From a virus, in the IMG/VR virus record IMGVR_UViG_3300006028_000004, positions 1 to 54,586 of that record: 54,586 nt of DNA. The stretch is one strand, 5' to 3'. Position 1 is the stretch's first letter; each line of letters begins with the position of its first letter. The position numbers and the translations under genes are program-made. The notes under the pieces are model-generated. The model saw only the letters and a program-made list of their open reading frames with translations, made no database searches and was not told the DNA's origin. Below, in pieces: positions 877 to 17,876 of this stretch.

Positions 877-3552
877 GTGAACATCGGCGAGATTTTAGTC
901 CGTTTCGGCGCTGAGACCTCCGGCTTTTCCGGCGGCGTCAGTATGCTTATCGGCCTCCTGGGCAAATTCGGCGCGTCACTTGCCCTTATCGGCAAGTCCA
1001 TGAGCCTTATGGATATGTCGCGCTACCTCTCCTCTATCGGCGCGACCAATACGGCCATGCAGGCGTCATCGCAGGCATCAGCGGCCATGAGTGCAGGACT
1101 CAAGGGGGTCGGAGTAGCAGCTCTTGCTGCCGTCGCGGCCCTGGTGATTATCGGCGCAGTGGCTGCCGTCGCTATCGGGGTCATCTCCGTCAAGGCCGCA
1201 GCCGACTTCCAGCAGGGTATGAACCGGCTAGCAACCGGCGCGGGGAATGTCACCGACAACATGAAGACGTTAGGGCAGGGCATCCTTTCCGTCTCGATTG
1301 CAACCGGCACCCTGACGAGCGGGACCAATGGCTTGCTGGCCGCTATGTATTTGATCGATTCCAGCGGGCAACGCGGGGCGCAATCTCTCGATACCCTTAA
1401 GGCGGCGGCGCAAGGAGCAAAGATTGAACAGGCGAACCTGGCCGATGTGACGCAAATCCTGACCACGCTACAAACCGACTTTGGGCTGCATACCTACACC
1501 GCTACTCAGTACATGAATGGACTCGTCGCCGCCGTCTCCCACGGCAAAATTACCCTGGAAGCGCTCTCCACGGCTATGTCACCTATCCTCCCCAATGCGA
1601 AAGAACTGGGCATCCATTTCGCCGACGTCGCTGCCGCCATGTCAGATATGACCAACCAGGGCATCCCGGCGGATCAGGCTGCCACTTCGCTGAGATTTGT
1701 GATGCAGAGCATGATCCTGCCGACGCATGCGTCGGCAGCGGCCATGAAGCAATGGGGGCTAGATACAGGCAAGGTGGCATCTGAGATGAAGGTTTCGTTG
1801 CCGGGCGCTATCCAGATGTACATTGATGCGGCCAAACGCGCAGGACCAGAAGGCAGTCAGCCCTTCATTGATGCCCTGGCAGGCATGATGGGCGGCGGGC
1901 AGCGGGCGGCGAAAGCCCTGTTTTCATTGAGTCAATCGATGGGTACCTGGAAATCAGATATCGCGGCAGTCAATACAGCGCTAGGACAAAACAGCCGTGA
2001 TGTCATGGGTTGGGAGACTGTCCAGGGCAGTTTCAATATCAAGTTAGGGCAAGCGCACGCGGCCCTCGATGCGCTTTTTATCGTCATCGGTACGCGCCTG
2101 CTGCCCGTCTTAACCCAAATCGTGGGGCAAATCACGCCCATTATCCAGAAGTTTGCCGATTGGGTGACGCACACCCACGATATCGACAATGCCATCAAGG
2201 CCGTCACGCCCTATTTCAATGCCATGTTCGATATCATCAAAGCGGCATTACCTGTCGTCATCGGCTTGTTCCTGAAATTTGTACACATTTTGGGACAAGT
2301 CATCACCTGGATTGGGCAGAATAAGGCGGTGCTGGAAGCGCTGATGACCATTATGAAGGCGCTGGGCATCATTATTGTTGGGGTTGTCGCGGCAGGTCTC
2401 CTTTTCCTGGCCGTCGCTTTCGTGGCGCTCGGCGTGGTCATTTTCGGGATCATCGGCGTGGTCATGACCCTTATCTCCATCTGGAAGATGCTGGTGGCCG
2501 CCGCCGGGTGGGTATCAGGCGCCTGGCATAGCGTCATCGGCTGGTTAGGTGGCGCGTGGCACTCTCTGGTGGCTATAGCAACCTCAGCCTTCAATGGGAT
2601 GAAGAATGCCATCGTCTCAGCGGTCAACGCCACGGTAAGTTGGATAACCTCAGCCTTCAATGGGGTCATCACCTGGCTGGTCAACGCCTGGCATAGTTGC
2701 GTACAGGCTGTCGTCGCCGCTTTCGCCTGGCTGTATAACCACAACTATTACTTCAAGCAATTGATCGACACCATCCGTAACGTGGTGTCGGGCGGGATTG
2801 CCTGGCTCACCACGGCCTGGGCAAATTCTGTCAAGTGGATTGGGGAGAAATGGGCGCTGCTCAAGGGACTGGCACAATCGGCCTGGGATTTAGTTGTGGG
2901 CGTCTTCAATAGCGTGTGGGGCACAATTTCGGGTATTCTCTCATCATTGTGGGCAAGTATTAGCGGCTGGTGGACGGGAACGGCCATACCTCAGATGAAA
3001 TCCAAGGCGACTTCCGCCTGGCAGGGCGTCTCCCAGGTCTTTAGTAGTGCCTGGGGGACGTACATTTCTGGGCCGCTGAACTCACTTGGAGGTCTGATTA
3101 ACGGTTTCTTCAGTAATCTAGCCGGGCAAATGGTGCAGCTTGGGCGTAATCTTATTCAGGGGCTCGTCGATGGCATCAATTCCATGCTCGGGGTCGTTTC
3201 TGGGGCTGCTTCCAACGTGGCAAGCACGATCACCAGCATCCTCGGTTTCCACTCGCCGCCGCCACAAGGGCCTGCCGCCGATGCTGACACGTGGATGCCC
3301 AACATGGTCAACCTACTGGCCAAAGGCATGACCGCCGGTGTGCCCTCAGTCACCAGGGCGGCTGTGCAGCTCGCGCAACCCATCCAGGGCAATCTCTCAG
3401 CTAGCGGAACAAGAAGCGCGACACCCGGCAGTAGTTCCTCCACCCGCCCCATCATCGTGCAATTCGGCAATGCCGAGTACCGGGGACTCATCCAGAATCT
3501 GGGGCATGACCTGCAGGGTACCATCGTCATTCAGAAGGGGGGCTTGCGCTAA
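877..3552 (+). CDS. Tail tape measure protein
   Basis: An 891-residue protein that sets tail length and is injected or positioned inside the tail tube. The start is GTG at 877, chosen for the strong AAAGGAGG site just upstream; it opens MNIGEILVRFG. Residues about 110-390 look like the TP901-type tape measure core (ATGAGNVTDN, then helical repeats such as NQGIPADQAATSLR). Residues about 470-560 hold long hydrophobic stretches, and 560-720 hold Trp-rich AW..SV.GW repeats. From the usual 1.5 angstrom per residue the tail would be roughly 130 nm. It lies just behind the chaperone pair and overlaps the next gene by one base. Confidence 0.93.
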   Translation: MNIGEILVRFGAETSGFSGGVSMLIGLLGKFGASLALIGKSMSLMDMSRYLSSIGATNTAMQASSQASAAMSAGLKGVGVAALAAVAALVIIGAVAAVAIGVISVKAAADFQQGMNRLATGAGNVTDNMKTLGQGILSVSIATGTLTSGTNGLLAAMYLIDSSGQRGAQSLDTLKAAAQGAKIEQANLADVTQILTTLQTDFGLHTYTATQYMNGLVAAVSHGKITLEALSTAMSPILPNAKELGIHFADVAAAMSDMTNQGIPADQAATSLRFVMQSMILPTHASAAAMKQWGLDTGKVASEMKVSLPGAIQMYIDAAKRAGPEGSQPFIDALAGMMGGGQRAAKALFSLSQSMGTWKSDIAAVNTALGQNSRDVMGWETVQGSFNIKLGQAHAALDALFIVIGTRLLPVLTQIVGQITPIIQKFADWVTHTHDIDNAIKAVTPYFNAMFDIIKAALPVVIGLFLKFVHILGQVITWIGQNKAVLEALMTIMKALGIIIVGVVAAGLLFLAVAFVALGVVIFGIIGVVMTLISIWKMLVAAAGWVSGAWHSVIGWLGGAWHSLVAIATSAFNGMKNAIVSAVNATVSWITSAFNGVITWLVNAWHSCVQAVVAAFAWLYNHNYYFKQLIDTIRNVVSGGIAWLTTAWANSVKWIGEKWALLKGLAQSAWDLVVGVFNSVWGTISGILSSLWASISGWWTGTAIPQMKSKATSAWQGVSQVFSSAWGTYISGPLNSLGGLINGFFSNLAGQMVQLGRNLIQGLVDGINSMLGVVSGAASNVASTITSILGFHSPPPQGPAADADTWMPNMVNLLAKGMTAGVPSVTRAAVQLAQPIQGNLSASGTRSATPGSSSSTRPIIVQFGNAEYRGLIQNLGHDLQGTIVIQKGGLR

Positions 3553-6500
3553 TGGCTCTCCTTGTCACTTCTGCCGGGACACCGCTTGCTGTGCATATCG
3601 AGTCAATTACCTATGATGAAAAGATCGACGACCCGGCTACCTGCACCTTCGACGTGCCTGATAGCGTCGCCTACTCGCTCTCCCAGTACCAGGTGGTGAA
3701 TGTGACCGATACCGTCACCTCAACCCTCCTCTACGCGGGTTACATCGTCTCGGTAGCGGATGTAGCCTTCCCTGGCAATCTCGGTATCAGGATGAGGACG
3801 ATCACTTGCACGGGGAACCGCTGGCTGGCCGAGAAACGCTACTGGACGGGTCCAGAGTTCAACGGCTGGACGGCAGGGGACGTAGCCGCCGAGGTGCACC
3901 GCATCGTATTGGCTGCTGAGGGCGTCAGCGCTGCCTACGCGCTGCGTCATGACATGGATGCGGCCTCACTGGGCGCGGGTACGCTTGTGGGTACGACTGC
4001 CGCGAATGGAGTATTGACGCTTGCGCCGGCAGGGACCGATTTTACCAAGACGGAAAGCGTCACTGCCGACTTTGCTACCGGGACGCTTACCAATGTAGCG
4101 GCGACCGGCAACGCTCTAGCGCTCTCATCATTCCTGGCGATCAAGTTCACGGGAAGCGTTGGGTCGAACCTTGATGCCAATGCGCTCTACACGAAAAGGA
4201 AGATCTGGGCAGGTACAGCCTACACTATCGCTACCGGGGATATCGTCACTTTTGACTTGTGGGTCACCTCCTCTTCGCCTGAGATTAAAGCCTCGCTGGA
4301 CATCCTCTTTTCCGATGGCTCCTGGGCCTCGGACAGCCCGACGGATATTCAGGATCAATGGAACATCTATATCGCGCCGACGACCGACCTCAAAGGATGG
4401 GCCGATGACCAGTGGTTCGCACGCTCGTGTATCGTTGGTCCGGGCGTCGTCGGCAAATCTATCGTGTCCGTCTACATCGTTTTCGCCGGGACGAAAGGCG
4501 GGGACTATACCGCGTATTTCAAAAACGCGAAGATCACCAACTCAGGGGGCACGGTGCAGCGCTCATTCTTTAGCGGCGCCGATACGGTGATGGCCGCCAA
4601 TGTCCCGTCCTCCACGTCTGGCTACTTTAATGTGACCGCTTCCATCGTCACCGTCTACGCCCACGATGGTAACCGCGTCTCTCCTGCAAGGTCGATCACG
4701 TCCGTCGGTATCGTCAAGGGCTCGGTCATCTCCTGGGTAGAGAAGGACGCGGCGCAAGCATCAGGCGGCAGTAACCAGTATCTCCCGCAAGTCTTGATCG
4801 AGGCATCCTATGATGATGGGGCCACCTTCCAAACATGCACGAACCACGCAGCGCTCCCCGGGCTGATCGTGGGCATGAACGCCTCTGGACGCACCGTCAC
4901 CCTACGCCAAACGCTGGCCGTGGGCGGTCCCAGCCCTGAAATGGGACCGCTACTCGACACCTGTAGCTTCACGGTCTTCACGGCGGCGGCTATGACCAAG
5001 ACCGACTTTGTGGATATCGACAATAGCACGGCCACCCTAGGAACAGGCGTCCTCACCAACTGTACCGCTTACAGCAATGGACTGATGACGACGGGCATCT
5101 ATCGTGATTGGACAGTGAGTGGGCCATCAGATGCGCCATCTTACGCCTCGCAAACGCTTTTCGGGGTATCGGGCGCAGGCAACCCGCAGCAGGGGGAAGC
5201 GCAGAACTACTTTTATCTGAGGACTGATAGCAGTCTTGACTGTAAATCACGTTTCGACTTTGCCGGGACGTGGCAGAACTTCGTGGCAGAAATCGATATC
5301 GAACTGGTGCAGGCGACCGGCAATTCAGAGTACGGCTTCGTTTACCGCACTACTGGATGGGTCAATGCCAATAATACCTATGCTTACGCCGCCCAAATAA
5401 GTGGTACGCACATCATGCTCAATCGCGCCGCCAATGGGGGCACGCCCGCCTTTACCAGTATTGTCAGCGTTGCCCTCACACTGACCACCGGCTCCTGGTA
5501 CCGCATGAAAATCGTGGTCAATGGCAGTAACCACAAGGTCTTCTTGAATGACTTCAAGTTCATCGATGTCACCGATGCGACGTATAGCGCCGCTGGCAAC
5601 GTGGGCGTGCGCTTCTGGAATAATAGCGGAGCGCGTGACTCCGGTCACTTTGACAACTTCGGCATCGTCAGTTACGAGGCTGACTTCATCTCCGTCTCTT
5701 CGCGGCAGACCGCCGCGATCAGCCTGTCAGGCATTGTCGGTAGTTCCATTGTCAATTGGAATGCCATTGTCCCGTCCACCTCTGTCTTGCTCGTTGAGTC
5801 CACCATTGACGCGGGTACTACCTGGAGTACATGTACCAATGGCGGGCAAATCCCCTTGCTTGTACCGGGCTTCAATGCCGCCGGGAAAAACCTGAAGTTC
5901 CGCTTTACCATGACCAACCAGGCGGTCAATATCCCTATCGTGCTGACAGGCTACTCAGCCTTCATCATCGGCCAGTACAGCGCATCAGGGACGCGGGTTT
6001 CGCCGGTGCTGGCCATTGGCGCGGCAGGCACAATCGGCTCGTCTGCGGTCAGTTGGGTAGCCACGACACCCACAGGGACAGGGCTGGTCATGGCAGGCAG
6101 TACCGACAACATCACCTATACGACGATTGCGGCATCAGGCAACCCCATAGCCGGACTGGTTGCGCAGGGGGCGCTCATTGCCGATGACTTTATCACGAAT
6201 ACGTCCGCGAACTATACCAGCACCTTTAATAATGGCGGCAGCGTCACCACCTGGACGTGGGATACCGCCAACTCTCGCCTTACCACGCCTGCCGCCACGG
6301 GTGCAGATAGTTGTCTGGTGTATAACGGCGTGGTCGCGGTTGATCTGTATATAGAGGCTACTCTTGACCAGGTAGCCAATGGGGGGCTCGCATGCCGGCG
6401 CGTGGACGGGAATAACACCTATAGCGCCTACGTCTATGATGCCTCTGCTGCCGCGACGCCCAATACGTTCGCACTGTATAAAATCGTGGCTGGCGCCTAT

Positions 6501-7715
6501 ACATTACTGGCAAGCGGCCCGCTTGCCTTTGTACGCGGGAGCTATCACACGTTCCGACTCTCGACTGTTGGCACTACCATCAGCTTGCTCATGGACAGCA
6601 TACAACTTGCATCGGTGACGGATAGCAGTATCAGTGCTGCCGGAAAAGCCGGGCTGATCGGCAGCAATGGCAATGTGGGCAGCCGCTTCTATAGCATGAA
6701 TATCCTGCCGCTGGGTGCATCCGCCTCCGGGAAGAATGTCTACACGCGGGCTACGCTCACCTCGACCGACCCGACGCAAAACCCGGTAGTCTCGTCCATA
6801 GTGACCTCGGTGCGCTCGCCCGATATCATGACCGGGGCGCAAATCCTCGGGACGAAGTATCAGTATACGAAAAAGTGTTCGGAGATCCTGCTTGACGTGG
6901 CAGGACAATCCAAGATGTACATGCGTCTCGACAAAAACAAGTCCCTCAAGATGAAGGACCGCGCCTACACGCCCGCCCCCTGGCCGCTCTACAGCGCCGA
7001 CCCGCTCTTTTTGGGGCCGCGCCACCCGCCCACGGCCACAAGGCAATCACCCGCGTATCGCAACCGGCAGTATGTCTACAACGCCATTAACCTGCAATCG
7101 TGGCCTGAAAGCAAGGTGGGCGACGGCAATACGCAATCCTGGGCACTGGCCTATCCAGTGGATAGCATCACGAGCTTGCTGCTTGATGGCACTCCGCAGA
7201 CGTGGGGCGTGCAAGGCGTGGACTCTGGCCGAAACTTCTACTACCTGCCGGGGCAGAATGCCCTCTCTGCCGATAGTTCGCTCTTTCCTGAGCAGGGTGC
7301 ACAAATCGCGCTCGTTTACATCGCTCGTGTGCCGTATACCTCCATGCGTGAGAGTACCGCGCAACAGGCCATCCTCGCAGCCGTGGACGGTTCGACCGGC
7401 ATTGTGGAGGCATCGGAGGATTGTGGCGGGCTTCCAGCGGCTGCCGCTGATGTCATTGCGCAGGCGCGTATCGATGCCAACGCCATCTTATCGGTGGACT
7501 GGGAATACTTCACATCACGTAGCGGGCTTGCGCCGGGTCAACTGCAAACCATGTTCGTGCCGGAGCATGGTCTGAACGACGTGGATATGCTCATCACCGA
7601 GATCACAACGGCGCTGTGGCTCGATGGCAGCGGCAATCTTCAGTATGAGTACGACGTCAAAGCCACGTCGGGCGCCAATATCGGCACGTGGCAAAGGATA
7701 TTCGCACTGGCATAG
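3552..7715 (+). CDS. Large tail-tip / baseplate protein with lectin-like domains
   Basis: A 1387-residue protein starting at an ATG that overlaps the tape measure stop (TAATG). The N-terminal 120 residues and the C-terminal 250 residues (around ILSVDWEYFTSR to the end) look like the tail hub or distal tail scaffold of Gram-positive siphoviruses. Between them are at least two concanavalin/LamG-like beta domains, around 600-730 and 890-1050, each with a GFVYR or GLACRRVDGNNTY-type strand and a C-terminal FDNFGI-like strand. The likely role is host surface recognition at the tail tip. The exact family is not recognised; position and architecture carry the call. Confidence 0.75.
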   Translation: MALLVTSAGTPLAVHIESITYDEKIDDPATCTFDVPDSVAYSLSQYQVVNVTDTVTSTLLYAGYIVSVADVAFPGNLGIRMRTITCTGNRWLAEKRYWTGPEFNGWTAGDVAAEVHRIVLAAEGVSAAYALRHDMDAASLGAGTLVGTTAANGVLTLAPAGTDFTKTESVTADFATGTLTNVAATGNALALSSFLAIKFTGSVGSNLDANALYTKRKIWAGTAYTIATGDIVTFDLWVTSSSPEIKASLDILFSDGSWASDSPTDIQDQWNIYIAPTTDLKGWADDQWFARSCIVGPGVVGKSIVSVYIVFAGTKGGDYTAYFKNAKITNSGGTVQRSFFSGADTVMAANVPSSTSGYFNVTASIVTVYAHDGNRVSPARSITSVGIVKGSVISWVEKDAAQASGGSNQYLPQVLIEASYDDGATFQTCTNHAALPGLIVGMNASGRTVTLRQTLAVGGPSPEMGPLLDTCSFTVFTAAAMTKTDFVDIDNSTATLGTGVLTNCTAYSNGLMTTGIYRDWTVSGPSDAPSYASQTLFGVSGAGNPQQGEAQNYFYLRTDSSLDCKSRFDFAGTWQNFVAEIDIELVQATGNSEYGFVYRTTGWVNANNTYAYAAQISGTHIMLNRAANGGTPAFTSIVSVALTLTTGSWYRMKIVVNGSNHKVFLNDFKFIDVTDATYSAAGNVGVRFWNNSGARDSGHFDNFGIVSYEADFISVSSRQTAAISLSGIVGSSIVNWNAIVPSTSVLLVESTIDAGTTWSTCTNGGQIPLLVPGFNAAGKNLKFRFTMTNQAVNIPIVLTGYSAFIIGQYSASGTRVSPVLAIGAAGTIGSSAVSWVATTPTGTGLVMAGSTDNITYTTIAASGNPIAGLVAQGALIADDFITNTSANYTSTFNNGGSVTTWTWDTANSRLTTPAATGADSCLVYNGVVAVDLYIEATLDQVANGGLACRRVDGNNTYSAYVYDASAAATPNTFALYKIVAGAYTLLASGPLAFVRGSYHTFRLSTVGTTISLLMDSIQLASVTDSSISAAGKAGLIGSNGNVGSRFYSMNILPLGASASGKNVYTRATLTSTDPTQNPVVSSIVTSVRSPDIMTGAQILGTKYQYTKKCSEILLDVAGQSKMYMRLDKNKSLKMKDRAYTPAPWPLYSADPLFLGPRHPPTATRQSPAYRNRQYVYNAINLQSWPESKVGDGNTQSWALAYPVDSITSLLLDGTPQTWGVQGVDSGRNFYYLPGQNALSADSSLFPEQGAQIALVYIARVPYTSMRESTAQQAILAAVDGSTGIVEASEDCGGLPAAAADVIAQARIDANAILSVDWEYFTSRSGLAPGQLQTMFVPEHGLNDVDMLITEITTALWLDGSGNLQYEYDVKATSGANIGTWQRIFALA

Positions 7716-9122: not shown

Positions 9123-12100
9123 ATGGCCTCTCTCGTTCTGTATGGCTCAAGCATCGCCGACAGCACTATTGCCGCCGCCTGTCAGATGGCGGCGGCATCT
9201 GGTGGCGTGGAAACCACCAAATCTACAAACAATACGGGCGCGGCTGGCGCGTATATGGAGGTCACCTCCAAAGGGTTGACGGTTGTCCCTGTCTCATCTA
9301 TCCCAGGCACGCCAACTGGCAATGGGTGGGACTACCTGCCAGGACAAGGGACATTTGACGTCGGTAACTGGTCGGCAGCTATACAGATGCATAACTCGGC
9401 AGCGACGGATTTCACCTTGCGCTTCTTCCAGTACAGCGCGGGTATCTACACCCTCATCGGCTCTATTACCACTGCTGCGACGGGCGGCACTGGCGGCGTT
9501 GTCTACTCTTTTGCGCCTACTGCGATGGGGACGCTGACGTTTGGGGCAACCGATCTCGTGTATATCGACCTGTGGTTTCAGGATGCAACGGGTGTAGCTG
9601 GTGATACGGTCACTACCTACCTCTCCAATTCGGCCACAGCCGGTGTTGCGAACGATATGCAGATCACGACCGCTAATTTCACCCCTGCCCCCGCCGGTCC
9701 TGACCCTACTGTGTATGGTTCCAATGTTCTTAATGGGACGCTCACCACCGCCTGCAATATGTCGATAGCACTTGGGGGCGTGGAAACAATCACAACGATT
9801 ACCGGCGTCGGCACGAATCCGTTTGGCGAGATAACCCCCAAGGGCAACGGCTCAACTTCAGGGTTTCTCACCATTCCAGCAACGCCTACGGGTCTGGGAT
9901 GGGTGTATCAACCAGGGGCGGGTACTACTCCTGCGACAAATTGGTCAGCAAGTATTCGACTGAACGTGCCACCCGCCACCAATGCCACGCTGCGTTTCTT
10001 CAAATGGAGTAGCGGCTCCTATACCCTGATCGGTTCGATTGTCACCTCACTTGCAACGGGGGGTATTGCCACCTATACCTTTGCCAATACTGCCATGCCT
10101 GCCGTCATCTTTGGCGCATCTGATTTGCTGTACATGGACTTATGGTTTCAGGATGCGACGGGTATCGCGGGCGATACCTTTGGTGTCTATGTCAGTACGT
10201 CGGCGACAGCCGGTGTTGCCAACGATATGCAGGTCACTTTCCCGTCCTTCCCGTCGCAACTGATGAATTCCACCTACATCCCGCGTGTCTTCGGTGGGAC
10301 ACTCGTCCGCTCATGGGTACCGCGTATCTTCGGTGGGACACTCGTCCGCTACGTCGCAGTCAGTACAGGGGTGGCGCTCACAAGCCAGCTTGCCGGAACC
10401 TCGTCACTTGCCGGGTCGCTCTCACTTCAGACAGCACTTACCACGACGCTCGCCGGGGTAGGAACGCTCGCCGGATCACTCGTGGCCAGTCTTGCGCTTC
10501 CGACCACGACGATGGCCGGGGCGGGGACGTTCTCCGGCACGTTCTCTATTCCCTGGCTATCGGTATCGGCTACAGGTCAGATCGTTGATATCACTGGTGC
10601 GGTTGTACATCTACGTGGTTTCAACACGTCCGGCCTTGAATATGGTGACGGACTTTCCGATATCACCCAGGCACGCATAAATGCGCTTGCATCCTTGTTC
10701 TCCATGAACCTGTGGCGGCTGTGCATCAATGTCTCATGGTGGAACAATAACGTGCTCATGACGGATGGGGTGACGCACTATCAAACCTGGATACAGACCG
10801 TCATCGGCTGGATGAAGGCGGCAGGCTGTTATGTCGAAATTGACCCGACGAATTTATCGCCAATTCCCCCTAATACTAGTGGGCCATCCTGTAACAATCC
10901 GCCCATCACGACGGTAGACTCTGACACGTTTACCCGTGCCAACCAATCAGGGTGGGGAACTCCGTCAGGCGGTGGGTCATGGATACTGACAGGGCCAGCG
11001 ACCCTCTCGATTGCCAGTAACGAGGGGGTGCTTTCAGGGACAGGCGGCAATAATGCCTTTCTGCGTATAGGAAGCAATACGGCAGCCGACCTGGAATTAC
11101 AGACACGTTTCGCGCTGACCAATAGCAATCATGTCTATGCAGGGGTATTTTGTCGCTGGATCGATGGCGATAACTGCTATCTCGCCTATGCTGATACCGC
11201 CAACCTGTACCTTGCGAAAAGGGTAGGCGGTGTGCAAACAAACCTTGCAACGGTCGCGAAGACCTTCACGCCAGGAACCTTTTACCAGATAAAGTTTTGG
11301 GCCAGTGGAACACAGCTTACCGTCAAGACCTGGAATGATAGCGTGGGAGAACCCGACCCCTATGATATCCAGTTGACAGATAGCAGCCTCACGGCAGCGA
11401 ACTTCTACGGTCTCTATTCCTTTGATACGGGCAGTGGAGACTCTACGCAGTTCGATCATTACGTTGCATCGACCCCTCAAACATCCTGTATCATCTCGCA
11501 GAATACCCAGAACTTCCCGCCCTGGACAGAAGCACAGATGGTCGCTGCCTTCGTGTCATTTTTCCAATCCTTTGTGCCTCTGTACGTCAACGACCCTGCT
11601 ATTCTCTACGATGCGATGAATGAGCCGACCTACTGGGGGCAGGTTGCTACCGTTGCCGACAATAATACGGTCATCAATGCCATACGCGCCATTCATTCAA
11701 ACTCGCTGATCTTCGTCCTTGCCTTTGGTGACAGTTCGTTCACTGGCTACTCTCAGCCAAATATCATTCATGATTACCATGTCTATGATGGCAGTCCTAC
11801 CTGGCAGACGCAGTTAGCATGGTGGACAGATGGGTCTATCCCTTCAGACAAGAGTACTGACATTGGTGAATGGAATGTTGGTGGTGTGGCAGACGCTCAG
11901 GGGTTTGCTACCGATATTGCAAATATTGCCCTCATGCGTGATGTTGCGACCACCTATTACAATGAAAGCAATGTGTTGCTCTCGGATAACGCGACGATTA
12001 CCGTCGAAGGCTCTCTTGTTGCCTTAACCTTTCAGACCATTCAGGCTCAGGCGTATCAACCGCGTGCCTTTGGCGGAACCCTCATCAAACGCTATCCTCT

Positions 12101-13562
12101 CAATCTTAGCGGCGTATTTACAGGGGCAGGCACCCTTTCAGGCGCGATGAGTCTTTCCACCGCACTTGCCTGTACCTTTACCGGGGTAGGTACACTCGCA
12201 GGTACAGCCGCGCTTACCATAGCACTTGCGAGTACCTTTCCAGGAATAGGCACGCTTGCTGGGCCACTCTCAGCCGCGCTTACCCTCACGGGAACAACCT
12301 TTGCCGGGGCGAGTACCGTAGCTGGTAGTGTGTCACTTACCACACCACTGACAAGCACACTCAGCGGAGCAGGAACGCTTGCCGGAACCGTGCAGTTGAG
12401 CACAGCTTTGGCAGGAACGCTTGTCGGGATAGGTACCATAGCCGGGACAATGGCATTGGTTACAAGTCTCGGTACAATCCTACCCGGCGTTGGTGTCCTC
12501 ACCGGAGCGTTGGGAACGACCGCCCCGGTGGCGCTTTCCGTGACGATGGCCGGGGTAGGCACGCTTAGTGGGACGCTAGCACTCTCGACTCACCTGGTAA
12601 GTACACTGCCAGGTGTGGGTACCCTCGCGTCCACCTTCCAGCTTTCAACCTCTCTCTCGGTCACGGCAGCGGGGATAGGCCAACTTTCCGGGTCACTCAC
12701 GGCCAATCTCACACTTCCTAGCGCGTCGCTGCCTGGTAGCGGTACCCTCAGCGGGACGGTCCAGTTGACAACTCAACTGACAGACACATTTAGCGGGATA
12801 GGGGCACTCAGCGGGGCACTTACTGCCAATATGACGCTTGCCAGTGTGACACTCGCCGGGGTGGGTACCCTGACCGGGACGGTAGTCCGTTCAACTGTAC
12901 TCACCACGACGCTCGCCGGGGTAGGAACGCTCGCCGGATCACTCGTGGCCAGTCTTGCGCTTCCGACCACGACGATGGCCGGGGTAGGTACTCTCAGTGG
13001 GACGATAGCACTGTCGGGGCTCGTGGCGCTCGTGGTGACCATGCCGGGTGTAGGGACACTTACAGGAACGCTCGCCGCCGCGCTCACACTACCGGGCGTG
13101 AGTTTGGCCGGGGTAGGCCAGCTTTCGGGAATAACCGGGCGAAATACGGCACTCGTGGGAACATTGGCTGGCAGTGGGACGCTCTCAGCCCAATTGTCAG
13201 TGCAAACCGTCCTTGTCGGGGCATTCAACGGGGTAGGCACGGCGGCATTCGCTTTGTTCCTGAGAACGTCGTTGACTATTCAGCTTTCAGGAACAGGCAT
13301 CATCACCACGAGCCCCTCTTACCGGGCGTCTCTGGCGCTGACGTTTGCTGCGCTGGGGAGCCTCTCAGGAACGCTGACGATGCCTGTTCTCGCGTATCTG
13401 AGCGCCACCTGGGTCACACGCGACGGCAATGCAACCTGGAAGGCGCGTGACGGCATAGCGGGATGGCGCACACGCGATGGGCAGGCGGGATGGAAGACGC
13501 GGGATGAGCAGGCGGGATGGCAGACGCGGGACGAGGCAGTACTATGGAAAACACGCGCATAA
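9123..13562 (+). CDS. Giant tail fibre with embedded GH5-like glycoside hydrolase
   Basis: A 1479-residue protein. Residues 1-195 and 196-380 are two copies of one beta domain (YGSSIADSTIAAA and YGSNVLNGTLTTA; both end WFQDATG..GDT). Then come PR.FGGTLVR linkers and a repeat tract. From about 478 a GH5-like TIM barrel begins (GQIVDITGAVVHLRGFN), is interrupted at about 592-786 by a LamG-like domain, and resumes with the acid/base motif NEP (Glu834), HxY (His886, Tyr888) and a nucleophile-like GEWN (Glu916). Residues about 990-1410 are AGVGTLSGTL-type repeats, and the C-terminus has seven W.TRDG-like repeats. The likely role is to bind and cleave a beta-glucan or other host glycan during adsorption. 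The substrate is inference. Confidence 0.82.
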   Translation: MASLVLYGSSIADSTIAAACQMAAASGGVETTKSTNNTGAAGAYMEVTSKGLTVVPVSSIPGTPTGNGWDYLPGQGTFDVGNWSAAIQMHNSAATDFTLRFFQYSAGIYTLIGSITTAATGGTGGVVYSFAPTAMGTLTFGATDLVYIDLWFQDATGVAGDTVTTYLSNSATAGVANDMQITTANFTPAPAGPDPTVYGSNVLNGTLTTACNMSIALGGVETITTITGVGTNPFGEITPKGNGSTSGFLTIPATPTGLGWVYQPGAGTTPATNWSASIRLNVPPATNATLRFFKWSSGSYTLIGSIVTSLATGGIATYTFANTAMPAVIFGASDLLYMDLWFQDATGIAGDTFGVYVSTSATAGVANDMQVTFPSFPSQLMNSTYIPRVFGGTLVRSWVPRIFGGTLVRYVAVSTGVALTSQLAGTSSLAGSLSLQTALTTTLAGVGTLAGSLVASLALPTTTMAGAGTFSGTFSIPWLSVSATGQIVDITGAVVHLRGFNTSGLEYGDGLSDITQARINALASLFSMNLWRLCINVSWWNNNVLMTDGVTHYQTWIQTVIGWMKAAGCYVEIDPTNLSPIPPNTSGPSCNNPPITTVDSDTFTRANQSGWGTPSGGGSWILTGPATLSIASNEGVLSGTGGNNAFLRIGSNTAADLELQTRFALTNSNHVYAGVFCRWIDGDNCYLAYADTANLYLAKRVGGVQTNLATVAKTFTPGTFYQIKFWASGTQLTVKTWNDSVGEPDPYDIQLTDSSLTAANFYGLYSFDTGSGDSTQFDHYVASTPQTSCIISQNTQNFPPWTEAQMVAAFVSFFQSFVPLYVNDPAILYDAMNEPTYWGQVATVADNNTVINAIRAIHSNSLIFVLAFGDSSFTGYSQPNIIHDYHVYDGSPTWQTQLAWWTDGSIPSDKSTDIGEWNVGGVADAQGFATDIANIALMRDVATTYYNESNVLLSDNATITVEGSLVALTFQTIQAQAYQPRAFGGTLIKRYPLNLSGVFTGAGTLSGAMSLSTALACTFTGVGTLAGTAALTIALASTFPGIGTLAGPLSAALTLTGTTFAGASTVAGSVSLTTPLTSTLSGAGTLAGTVQLSTALAGTLVGIGTIAGTMALVTSLGTILPGVGVLTGALGTTAPVALSVTMAGVGTLSGTLALSTHLVSTLPGVGTLASTFQLSTSLSVTAAGIGQLSGSLTANLTLPSASLPGSGTLSGTVQLTTQLTDTFSGIGALSGALTANMTLASVTLAGVGTLTGTVVRSTVLTTTLAGVGTLAGSLVASLALPTTTMAGVGTLSGTIALSGLVALVVTMPGVGTLTGTLAAALTLPGVSLAGVGQLSGITGRNTALVGTLAGSGTLSAQLSVQTVLVGAFNGVGTAAFALFLRTSLTIQLSGTGIITTSPSYRASLALTFAALGSLSGTLTMPVLAYLSATWVTRDGNATWKARDGIAGWRTRDGQAGWKTRDEQAGWQTRDEAVLWKTRA
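10440..10521 (+). repeat. 82-bp exact direct repeat, copy 1 (in fibre gene)
   Basis: Identical to 12903-12984, about 2.46 kb downstream in the same reading frame. Both copies encode the LAGVGTLAGSLVASLALPTT part of the AGVGTL repeat family. The glycosidase module lies between them, so recombination between the copies would delete the enzyme in frame. Confidence 0.9.
12903..12984 (+). repeat. 82-bp exact direct repeat, copy 2 (in fibre gene)
   Basis: Second copy of 10440-10521, followed by T instead of C at the first mismatch. Confidence 0.9.
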
Positions 13563-13578
13563 GAGGAGGAAGTTGAAA

Positions 13579-13914
13579 TTGTGGTCTCCGATTACCGTGG
13601 GCGACGGGCGTCCGTCGCATCACACCTTTACCACCGATAGCGGGATATTTTCCCTGGTCGGTCTATCGAATAACTTGATCGCCATGCACCTGGAAGATGT
13701 GAACAACAATTACGCGCTCTACGTCTGTACCGGCACGTGGAGCATCACCGGGGATGGCTCGACAGGCAAGGCGGATTTCACGCCTTCGGTGACCGATCTC
13801 ACGACGGGTTATCTGGGCCGCGTCGGTCTGTATAAAGCGTATCCCGTCGTTACCCTCGCATCAGGGCCGGTAGCGATGGATAGTCAAATACTTGAGGTCG
13901 ATATTCGATCTTAG
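13579..13914 (+). CDS. Hypothetical tail-associated protein, about 111 aa
   Basis: Starts with TTG at 13579, placed 9 bases after AGGAGG (13564-13569). TTG at 13573 is in the same frame but too close to the Shine-Dalgarno. The frame stays open further upstream, inside the fibre gene's WxTRDG repeats, which is an artefact of that repeat. Beta-rich composition (LVGLSNNLIAMHLEDVNNNYALYVCTGTW). Possibly a fibre cap or head-fibre-like accessory protein; no family recognised. Confidence 0.65.
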   Translation: MWSPITVGDGRPSHHTFTTDSGIFSLVGLSNNLIAMHLEDVNNNYALYVCTGTWSITGDGSTGKADFTPSVTDLTTGYLGRVGLYKAYPVVTLASGPVAMDSQILEVDIRS

Positions 13915-13935: not shown

Positions 13936-14376
13936 ATGGCTGGACTCACCACGCAAGCACAGAATAACATGCTTAATTTAATGAAAGGAACGACATGGCC
14001 GGCGTCCGGCGCATGGGGGGCAGCGCCAGCCACCACCTATGTCGGACTGTTTACCACCGCGCCGACGACCGATGCCAGTGCCTCCTATACGGGAACGGAG
14101 GTCACAGGCGGCGCCTATGCACGAGTGGCCGTGACCTCATCTACAGGTTGGTCGGCCATTACTGGCGGCTCCACCGCGCCATCGCAAATCAGTAATGCAG
14201 GTATTATCACGTTTCCGACGCCGACGGCCAACTGGGGCACCGTGCTGGCCATCGGCATTTTCGACGCCGCAACAACCGGCAACCTCCTCTGGTGGGCGAC
14301 TATCACTTCCCAGGTTATCAACACGGGGGTTATAGCGTCCTTCGCCATAGGAAGCTTAATTTTAACCATGGATTGA
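13936..14376 (+). CDS. Phage virion protein, 146 aa (minor tail or fibre-tip type)
   Basis: Starts ATG after AAAGGAG. The sequence GAWGAAPATTYVGLFTTAPT and the C-terminal FDAATTGNLLWWATIT resemble a widespread small phage structural family found near fibre genes. No enzyme motif. It is the last gene before the HNH endonuclease insertion. Virion role by resemblance and position. Confidence 0.7.
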   Translation: MAGLTTQAQNNMLNLMKGTTWPASGAWGAAPATTYVGLFTTAPTTDASASYTGTEVTGGAYARVAVTSSTGWSAITGGSTAPSQISNAGIITFPTPTANWGTVLAIGIFDAATTGNLLWWATITSQVINTGVIASFAIGSLILTMD

Positions 14377-15277: not shown

Positions 15278-15907
15278 ATGGCTGACGGTATGCAGGAACA
15301 GCGCGGGGGTGATGTTCGCCCGGTACCTGATCCAACGGTGCTCACCACCGAGGCGAGCGTGCGGCTGGAAGCGATGATCCGCGCCTTGATCGCATCTGAA
15401 ATCACGCATCAAAACGCGCTGTTCGATGAGAAGCTGGAAGGGGCGCGGTCGCAACTATCGGAGAGGATGACGGGCTCGGTGCGCCAGTTCGCGGAGAAGC
15501 TGACAAAAATCGAGGCGCAGTTTGATATGCTCTCTGCACGCACGGCTGAACAGAAGAAGGACACCAAGGACGCCCTTGACGCTGCTCTGGCCGCGCAAAA
15601 GGAGGCAGTGGCCTCGCAAACCGCCTCTTCAGAGAAGAGTATCACGAAGTCGGAGACGGCTACCATTGAGCGTATCAAAGCGGTCGAAACCCTGCTTTCC
15701 GCCTCGACGAGAGCTACCGATGACAAGATTGACGATATCAAGAGTCGCGTCGTCGCTATCGAAGCGGTGAAGCTCGGCACGCAGGAAGGAGTTGAGACCG
15801 TGCGTGCAGGCAGTACGGATATGCGGGCCATGATCGCCATTGTCATAAGTATCGCCTTCCTGCTCATCGCTATCGCCAGTGTCGCCATCGCGGTCTTGAA
15901 ACCCTAG
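15278..15907 (+). CDS. Coiled-coil membrane-anchored protein, 209 aa
   Basis: Starts ATG after AAAGGAG. Long charged helical coiled coil (residues 25-180; many EKL, AQKEA and KSETATIER repeats) with one C-terminal transmembrane helix (AMIAIVISIAFLLIAIASVAIAVL). Proteins of this shape often sit just before phage lysis genes. It may act in lysis or as an envelope-associated structural factor. No catalytic motif. Confidence 0.72.
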   Translation: MADGMQEQRGGDVRPVPDPTVLTTEASVRLEAMIRALIASEITHQNALFDEKLEGARSQLSERMTGSVRQFAEKLTKIEAQFDMLSARTAEQKKDTKDALDAALAAQKEAVASQTASSEKSITKSETATIERIKAVETLLSASTRATDDKIDDIKSRVVAIEAVKLGTQEGVETVRAGSTDMRAMIAIVISIAFLLIAIASVAIAVLKP

Positions 15908-15948: not shown

Positions 15949-16173
15949 ATGATTATCAATTTACTGGAATGGGCATTAAAGGTCGTTGTGGCGGCCTTTG
16001 TCCTCTTACTCTTATCGTTGTTATTGTGGTTCGTGTTTGACGCGGTAATGCGTTTGTTTAAAGGACCGGAACTGGATTTCTTCAGCGTGGCGCTCCTGGC
16101 TTTTGTCGCCGCCGTCGCTATCGGCAACTGGGGCATAAGCTTCTTGCATACGCGAACGGCTCCTACGCCATGA
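15949..16173 (+). CDS. Small two-TM membrane protein (holin candidate)
   Basis: A 74-residue protein with AAAGGAAG upstream and two hydrophobic helices (residues 8-32, VVVAAFVLLLLSLLLWFVF; 45-62, FFSVALLAFVAAVAIGNW). Its stop overlaps the lysin start by 4 bases, an arrangement that suggests translational coupling and a holin or antiholin role. The second candidate is at 17914. Confidence 0.65.
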   Translation: MIINLLEWALKVVVAAFVLLLLSLLLWFVFDAVMRLFKGPELDFFSVALLAFVAAVAIGNWGISFLHTRTAPTP

Positions 16174-17876
16174 GTACAGGTGATTATGCCAAAGCGGTAT
16201 GGCTACCCTCGCCCAATTTCTGGCCGGGCGGTGATGGCAACCAATTGATCGTGGTGCACGCGACAGCATCAGGCGGGCCGCAGACGGGCTACCAGTTGGC
16301 AACGAGCGCGGAATTTACCGATGGGCAATCGAACTCGACTCACTACATCAATGACGTGGATGGGACGGTCTATCAGATTGTACGTGAAGCCGATAGCGCG
16401 TGGGGCAACTGCTGCGTTGATGGTAACTCACCTTTCAGCGCAACCTATAACTGGAACAAGAACACGATCAGTATAGAGAACGTCAAGCACTCGAGCGACA
16501 ATAGCGAGCCACTCACCGCCGCTCAGTATCAATCCCTGCTCGCCCTGGTACGCGATATTGCGAGCCGCAATGCTATCCCGCTCGTGCATGGCAGCCCGAC
16601 CATGAAGGGGATCATTTTTCACCATGATCTGATGCCTATCATCAAGGGAAGATGTCCTGGCACGTTCCCCTATGGGACATTCTTTCAGGATTTACAAGGA
16701 GGAGGTACGCAGACGCTACAGACTACACACGATGGGATGGTAATGAACATCCCCAAGTCTAATCAACTGACAACGGGCGAGAGCTTTGTCATGTGTACGG
16801 TGTGGGCCCCTGCCGCTATCAACTTTTGCGCGCCGCCGGGGCAAAACGCACTGGCCGATGGCTCAGCCCAGGAAAATCCGATAGACGATCTGGCCGAACT
16901 GTGGTGGAGTACCCATAGCGGCGAGATGCCTGCTGACGTGGAATGGTGCTTAACTCAGGCGACCTATCCGGGTTCCACGCACCGCAACCTCTACTACCGG
17001 GTTATCACGCCGACACGGGCCAATATCACGCGAGCACTGCAAGCAGGCTACATCGTGCTGGCGACGGCCAACGAAGCCAATGTACTGGACGTGATGAACG
17101 GTGACCGGCAAGCCTATGGCTGGTCACTGGGTAATCACTTCTTCCCTCTGGCGGGCTTATCTGGCAGCAACTATATCGCCGCTGACCAACTTATCGGGCG
17201 GCAAGGCTACTGGCCGCCTGTGTATGACGCCGGGGCGCTGAACCCGTCCTATGCCGTGGTGGTGCAGGTGATCGGGCCAGATCCGGCGCATCCCTGGCTG
17301 GCTCCTATCCCACCAGGCGACCCGTCTACGTGGCCGTCTGGGTATAACGCGCAATTATTCGCAGGAGGAACAACGATTATGGGAATACCTACCGGCTGGA
17401 AGCCCGGCCCCAATAACAGTCTCATCGCGCCTAACCTTGTCCCGGTAACTGGTGGCAATTCCATCTGGGTGCAAGGGCATTCCTGGGATTCCAATAACCT
17501 ACCCATCAAGGCTGAGATGGGGCGCACCCTGGTCGAGCAAAGTAACCCGGCCCTTGGATCCGGTACCTGGCAGAACTTCAGAGGTACGCCAGGTCAACCG
17601 GCAGCGCTCGCCTGGCGTAAGGACACCAACCAGGTCTACCTGCCGTGGGCAGGACAAGAACTTGATTGGTACATGAACGCCTATGAGGCAGCGCAAGCAC
17701 AAATCGCGGTTCTCAAGGCGCAAGTAGCGGCCCTGCAAGCAGCAGGTACAGGCGCGGCTATCCCCCAGGCGGTACTCGATGATATCAAGAGCCTGGCCGC
17801 ACTCATTCCACCCGCCGCACTCACGCTAGAAACGCTCGTGAAGGATGCGGGATTACCACCACTCCCTACTCCATAA
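16170..17876 (+). CDS. Endolysin: N-acetylmuramoyl-L-alanine amidase plus second domain
   Basis: A 568-residue protein. Residues 1-175 form an Amidase_2-type domain that cleaves the MurNAc-L-Ala bond of peptidoglycan. Likely zinc ligands are His30 (VVHAT), His151 or His152 (FHHDLMP) and Cys162 (GRCPG); Glu103 (SIENV) fits the catalytic site. Residues about 190-410 form a second domain with FVMCTVWAPAAINFC and GNHFFPLAGLSGSNYIAADQ, which resembles the Cys/His layout of C39-like peptidases; this part is inference. The C-terminus has a coiled coil (AQAQIAVLKAQVAALQAAG). Flanked by holin candidates on both sides. Confidence 0.85.
   Translation: MSTGDYAKAVWLPSPNFWPGGDGNQLIVVHATASGGPQTGYQLATSAEFTDGQSNSTHYINDVDGTVYQIVREADSAWGNCCVDGNSPFSATYNWNKNTISIENVKHSSDNSEPLTAAQYQSLLALVRDIASRNAIPLVHGSPTMKGIIFHHDLMPIIKGRCPGTFPYGTFFQDLQGGGTQTLQTTHDGMVMNIPKSNQLTTGESFVMCTVWAPAAINFCAPPGQNALADGSAQENPIDDLAELWWSTHSGEMPADVEWCLTQATYPGSTHRNLYYRVITPTRANITRALQAGYIVLATANEANVLDVMNGDRQAYGWSLGNHFFPLAGLSGSNYIAADQLIGRQGYWPPVYDAGALNPSYAVVVQVIGPDPAHPWLAPIPPGDPSTWPSGYNAQLFAGGTTIMGIPTGWKPGPNNSLIAPNLVPVTGGNSIWVQGHSWDSNNLPIKAEMGRTLVEQSNPALGSGTWQNFRGTPGQPAALAWRKDTNQVYLPWAGQELDWYMNAYEAAQAQIAVLKAQVAALQAAGTGAAIPQAVLDDIKSLAALIPPAALTLETLVKDAGLPPLPTP

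Follow-up and report, generated by a model that had tools for sequence, protein, structure and literature searches.

The closest described phage enzyme is gp095 of Erwinia phage S6, a GH5 protein that degrades carboxymethylcellulose; cellulose is the first receptor of that phage (PMC9544554). GH5 proteins of the gp095 type are present in 36 phage records. Carbohydrate-binding modules (CBMs) that interrupt a glycosidase barrel have been described in bacterial enzymes. In the Bacteroidetes GH10 xylanases Xyn10C and Pm25, CBM4 is nested in the beta3/alpha3 loop (PMC7848910). In EngU, a GH148 beta-1,3/1,4-glucanase from a soil metagenome, a CBM splits a clan GH-A barrel, and mutagenesis of both catalytic glutamates abolished activity (PMC5725463). 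Two further systems come from viruses. A GH5 endomannanase of a soil virus from Stordalen Mire is active (PMC6786970), and the evolved Dit and Tal proteins of siphophages (J-1, OE33PA, skunaviruses) carry inserted CBMs (PMC8540738).

The subject of this report is a real and conserved nested enzyme-lectin in phage tail-region proteins. We analysed the 54,586 nucleotides of IMG/VR virus record IMGVR_UViG_3300006028_000004, called the window below. The same arrangement occurs in IMGVR_UViG_3300012201_000155 (L003) as a stand-alone gene of 510 aa, in the 109.8 kb contig IMGVR_UViG_3300027869_000006 (L004) within a protein of 2119 aa, and in 3300044740_000064 (L008) within a protein of 1377 aa. The carrier of the window copy is a soil-type phage, whose contig also codes for terminase, capsid, neck genes and a tail chaperone; no tRNA genes were found in the record. 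The terminase is closest to those of Streptomyces phage Dagobah and Thermobifida phage P1312 (about 38%), and the capsid protein stands at 28% to actinobacterial phages. These sequence affinities hint at a Gram-positive-type host.

The enzyme lies in an open frame of 1479 aa (9123..13562) that codes for a fibre-like protein of structural type. The frame is on the plus strand, as are the features within it and the three neighbours listed here. Upstream are tail genes, among them those for the tape measure protein (877..3552; phrog_1272, E 1.9e-52) and for a tail protein whose further lectin-like domains are similar to the nested one (3552..7715; 3keto-disac_hyd, E 5e-6). Downstream is the gene for an amidase-type endolysin (16170..17876; PHROG endolysin matches). 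The frame is therefore placed between tape measure and lysis genes, in the tail module where a fibre or depolymerase is looked for. The whole protein matches no PHROG or NCBIfam family, with no family model naming it a fibre, and no secretion signal was seen in its sequence.

It begins with a tandem domain, two copies of about 190 aa (residues 1-190 and 191-385; 9123..10277) that give a BLOSUM62 score of 466 in local alignment of the halves. Gly/Thr-rich repeats of 20-21 aa stand on both sides of the enzyme. Those before it (residues about 432-475; 10416..10547) have motifs spaced by 20-22 residues; those after it (residues about 985-1420; 12075..13382) keep the same spacing or multiples of it, with 15 motif matches past residue 990, and are 38% identical to a fibre-like protein in L004. 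The C-terminus is built of 9-aa repeats of the form W-x-x-R-D-... (13410..13559), with Trp at 1430, 1439, 1448, 1457, 1466 and 1475. At 13410-13600 the corresponding 27-nt repeat of the fibre gene runs into the beginning of the next open frame (13477-13914), whose N-terminus is the 9-aa repeat translated in a different frame (MGRRDGRRGMSRRDGRRG); the start given for this next gene is tentative.

A first-pass annotation, made from the letters of the window, had proposed a GH5-like glycosidase in a fibre-like tail-region protein, split by a lectin-like domain, and profile searches bear this out. PF00150 (Cellulase/GH5) matches the 1479-aa protein with E 5e-11 and 43 bits, against a curated cut-off of 23.5 bits, and it does so in two stretches. 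A six-frame search places profile positions 1-96 at 10584-10877 and positions 98-206 at 11529-11846, the second with E 3.3e-10. The break between them costs one profile position, and about 198 residues intervene. The three other copies also score above the cut-off (L003 49.4 bits, L004 69 bits and L008 a summed 45.7 bits). By sequence profile, GH5 endoglucanases are the nearest solved structures (6gjf, E 3.5e-11; T. fusca Cel5A 2ckr, 1.6e-10). The first part of the barrel, assigned to beta1 to beta3, covers residues 478-589 (10554..10889) and is 50-72% conserved in the three other phages; the second part, alpha3 to alpha8, covers residues 789-978 (11487..12056). The span first proposed, 10546-11960, holds the feature and ends too early, as 11960 belongs to Tyr946 on the last strand and the final barrel helix continues to about 12056.

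Between the two parts, in the beta3/alpha3 loop, is a lectin-like beta-sandwich of 198 aa (residues 591-788; 10893..11486). The earlier estimate of about 195 residues resembling the lectin domains of the gene at 3552 was close, and blastp finds that resemblance with E 1e-7 (residues 945-1035) and 1e-6 (residues 576-703). The modelled insert is structurally closest to the CBM66 of B. subtilis levanase (4azz), with Z 19.8 and an rmsd of 2.3 A over 157 residues, and the concanavalin-like fold was recovered in two models with Z 18-20 to 4azz, 4b1l and 4b1m. Sequence similarity to CBM66 is detectable too, with hmmsearch E 5e-5 over positions 36-181 of a profile of seven such domains. The insert differs from the levanase domain in being nested in a barrel and in having only 16% identity to it. 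We call it CBM66-like only. Phage receptor-binding domains match it as well: the mycobacteriophage Douge central fibre at Z 19.1, the gp23 receptor-binding domain of TM4 at Z 17.4 and, from the evolved Dit of phage J-1, the CBM2 module (5ly8) at Z 16.4. Since Streptomyces phages have relatives of the insert in their minor tail proteins, and other viral contigs have them apart from any GH5, the insert is, as judged from sequence and predicted fold, a common phage-tail type of sugar-binding module, here placed within an enzyme.

Of the cysteines, just two are unchanged in all four copies, one at each border of the insert: Cys590 at its entry (10890..10892) and Cys789 at its exit (11487..11489). 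Their conservation suggests a pair, and a disulfide probably closes the neck of the insert.

The first-pass annotation had named an AlphaFold model as a check and the lack of a TIM barrel as a refutation. An AlphaFold2 model of residues 474-960, made from the four-sequence alignment, has a mean pLDDT of 60.8 and a pTM of 0.44; pLDDT is 72-85 in blocks that cover a large part of the insert and mostly lower in the barrel. Its strands and helices alternate in (beta/alpha)8 order, with the insert after the third strand. The low-confidence barrel of this model aligns with the CjCel5C endoglucanase 8bqb (Z 17.4, rmsd 3.7 A, 240 residues over positions 1-487), and the two flanks of the insert together cover this one GH5 endoglucanase barrel; a missing barrel is thus not what the model gave. 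Among its best 50 structural matches there is one GH5 chain. A second model, with the L004 copy as lead sequence, was poorer, at a mean pLDDT of 54.5, and had no GH5 chain among its best 50 matches; the structural search with it gave only lectin-type matches, and a BFVD structure search gave mostly matches to lectin domains. The assignment of the barrel therefore rests on homology first and on the predicted model second, and its three-dimensional form at atomic accuracy is something that we infer.

The active site of a usual GH5 enzyme has eight residues: Arg, the beta3 His, Asn, Glu, His, Tyr, Glu and the beta8 Trp. As controls we aligned four GH5 enzymes: phage S6 gp095, the plasmid-borne enzymes of Clavibacter and Streptomyces, and that of Pseudomonas phage Skulduggery. 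Six of the eight residues are invariant in all four nested copies and pair with the canonical residues of the controls. They are Arg532, the beta2 Arg of clan GH-A (10716..10718), Asn833 and the predicted acid/base Glu834 of the NEP motif (Glu834 at 11622..11624), His886 and Tyr888 of the HxY motif (11778..11786), and the predicted nucleophile Glu916 of GEWN (11868..11870). The residue numbers given earlier (N833-E834-P835, H886, Y888, G915-E916-W917-N918) were correct, and the catalytic pair noticed at that time is retained, with Glu834 and Glu916 at the ends of beta4 and beta7 as in GH5. The two other sites have changed in every copy. Thr576 (10848..10850) takes the site of the beta3 His, which is present in all four controls; the nested copies have T/T/T/G here. 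Tyr946 (11958..11960), conserved in all four copies, takes the site of the beta8 Trp; three controls have this Trp, and the remaining one ends before it. Because only six of the eight residues are kept, we class the enzyme as GH5-type and assign it to no known subfamily of canonical GH5.

The beta3 strand, where the His is lost, leads into the insert, and this suggests that the insertion was accompanied by remodelling of the beta3 side of the cleft. Catalysis seems likely from the residues retained, and as two of the eight usual residues are replaced, activity or specificity may differ from that of usual GH5 enzymes. The substrate cannot be read off for the same reason, GH5 being polyspecific in addition, and the beta-glucan-like surface sugar proposed in the first pass is not supported.

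Compared with the window copy, L003 is 63% identical overall, L004 49% and L008 40%. The values by segment, in the same order, are 66/72/50% for the first part of the barrel, 64/40/33% for the insert and 63/45/40% for the second part of the barrel. The point at which GH5 is split is identical in all four copies. For the first part a comparison with L003 gives dN 0.30 and dS 1.5, which indicates purifying selection; for the insert and the second part dS has reached saturation, so the usable ratio comes from the first part only. Three gene contexts are represented: the repeat-stalk protein of the window, multi-domain proteins, and the free-standing gene of L003, so that a fibre context is not obligatory. 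The L004 contig is a distant relative of the window with the same order of tape measure, 3552-like tail protein, enzyme and endolysin-like gene (32-47% identity). The part of the L008 contig examined has little in common with the window beyond the nested module and the N-terminal fibre domain. It seems that the nested enzyme moves between phages as one piece. 

Several other observations concern these contigs. The L008 phage has a relative of the N-terminal domain of about 190 aa in a further protein (L031:876-3077; 52% over 153 aa). At L004:375-12476 there are three consecutive large proteins with polysaccharide-active domains: one that is chondroitinase-B/beta-helix-like, one with a phosphoesterase and the nested GH5, and one with a second GH5-like domain and Laminin_G_3. 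The window proteins encoded at 13936-14376 and 15278-15907 are 81% and 68% identical to products of L004-contig genes, compared with about 32-47% for the tail genes of the same two phages, and this difference in sequence identity suggests a recent exchange. On the opposite strand just before the stand-alone gene of L003 is a GIY-YIG-like frame, assigned by eye (L003:4534-5067); possibly it is a homing endonuclease that helped the nested GH5 to move.

Scans of IMG/VR found the nested GH5 in no contig beyond L003, L004 and L008, and returned relatives of the insert alone as well. Bacterial relatives were found in none of 84,980 genomes, and plasmids gave none either; the former scans used two short degenerate patterns each and the latter were also short-pattern scans, so both are weak evidence. 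In named phages the lectin domain is present, in the minor tail proteins of Streptomyces phages mentioned above, and the nested GH5 was not found.

Several explanations can be offered for such a locus. The interruption might be an artefact: mis-assembly could have joined a lectin gene to the enzyme, or two weak GH5 fragments without relation to each other could have been taken for one domain. The window is indeed a single metagenome contig, and each half of GH5 scores modestly when taken alone. However, three other IMG/VR contigs, from different metagenomes and with diverged sequences, are split at the same point and have the same cysteines at the borders, so the arrangement is neither chance nor assembly error. 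An artefact would need an assembly error shared by all four contigs; we regard it as refuted, and the probability left to it is negligible. A different suggestion is that the enzyme is dead, with the GH5 scaffold kept as a second lectin whose barrel only binds the receptor glycan. The loss of the beta3 His and the beta8 Trp in all four copies would agree with this, and so would a binding domain nested at the cleft. Yet a pure binder would not need both glutamates, the Asn of NEP, the HxY pair and the Arg, which remain invariant at 40-63% identity, and we consider this explanation unlikely.

Another potential role is that of an auxiliary metabolic enzyme, a cellulase or mannanase that degrades a plant polymer for the infected host or the community and has no part in adsorption. 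Soil viruses do encode a functional GH5 endomannanase (PMC6786970), in L003 the enzyme is encoded by a gene of its own, and the L004 contig bears several polysaccharide-degrading domains. Nevertheless, the window copy belongs to a repeat-stalk protein in a tail block and no secretion signal was seen, and the L004 and L008 copies are within large multi-domain proteins as well. A purely metabolic role is thus quite improbable.

The reading that we prefer, with a probability of roughly 0.68, is a virion-borne depolymerase or receptor-binding module that binds and cuts. The nested arrangement has been kept in three other uncultivated phages, which makes it likely that the tool functions and is directed at a sugar on the host surface. 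If correct, residues 478-978 of a fibre-like protein located on the virion would form a clan GH-A, GH5-type (beta/alpha)8 glycosidase, with the CBM66-like lectin in the beta3/alpha3 loop beside the catalytic cleft and its neck probably pinned by a disulfide between Cys590 and Cys789. The stalk of Gly/Thr-rich repeats would bring this enzyme-lectin unit to the cell surface when the phage adsorbs. There the nested lectin, together with lectins elsewhere in the tail, would hold a chain of surface polysaccharide or exopolysaccharide and feed it to the cleft, where Glu834 as acid/base and Glu916 as nucleophile would cut it by a retaining mechanism. By such cutting the phage could recognise the polymer, make its way through it or clear it away. 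A further-reaching proposal is that these enzymes make up a phage-specific GH-A subfamily lacking the beta3 His and the beta8 Trp, with a disulfide-pinned lectin in the cleft, and with binding and cutting joined in one mobile module; we offer this more tentatively, as somewhat less than an even chance.

If the enzyme is active, it would be a receptor-binding enzyme with recognition and cleavage interlocked, shared by no fewer than four uncultivated phages of diverged sequence. The hosts of these phages would be expected to bear a polysaccharide that has to be opened. The CBM-in-barrel design of biomass-degrading bacteria would then also exist in phage tails. GH5 genes of soil viruses that are counted as auxiliary genes for carbon cycling may be tail parts.

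How does this locus compare with the systems described at the outset? In the published papers and records searched, there was no report of a phage-tail glycosidase with a nested CBM, or of a GH5 barrel that holds a CBM66-like domain. S6 gp095, from a member of the Schitoviridae with homologues in Klebsiella, Serratia and Pseudomonas phages, is likewise a GH5 in a multi-domain phage protein. However, it is without insert, its GH5 is C-terminal, and its beta3 His and beta8 Trp are present; the two enzymes are not detectably close by tblastn, and profile comparison is weak (E 0.014). The initial view that cellulase-like enzymes are rare in phage fibres holds in the sense of uncommon, but with S6 gp095 (PMC9544554) and its 36 phage records they are established. 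The soil-virus endomannanase resembles the window enzyme as a GH5 of an uncultivated soil virus and differs in being treated as an auxiliary metabolic gene. Evolved Dit and Tal are tail proteins with inserted sugar-binding beta-sandwiches too, although there the CBM is within a structural protein and not an enzyme.

An insertion in the barrel had also been called unusual. Within our search this stands for phages, but not for bacteria, which have GH10 Xyn10C/Pm25 and GH148 EngU. Xyn10C and Pm25 have a carbohydrate-binding insert in the same beta3/alpha3 loop of a clan GH-A barrel; they differ in being bacterial GH10 enzymes acting on xylan, with two CBM4 in Pm25, whereas the window has one CBM66-like domain in a GH5-type enzyme of a phage fibre. 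In EngU, by the description in that paper, CBM4 lies between the catalytic glutamates, while the window insert precedes both; EngU is moreover GH42-like and not PF00150, and is a bacterial enzyme with a signal peptide. The nested enzyme-lectin is hence novel as a combination and not as a kind.
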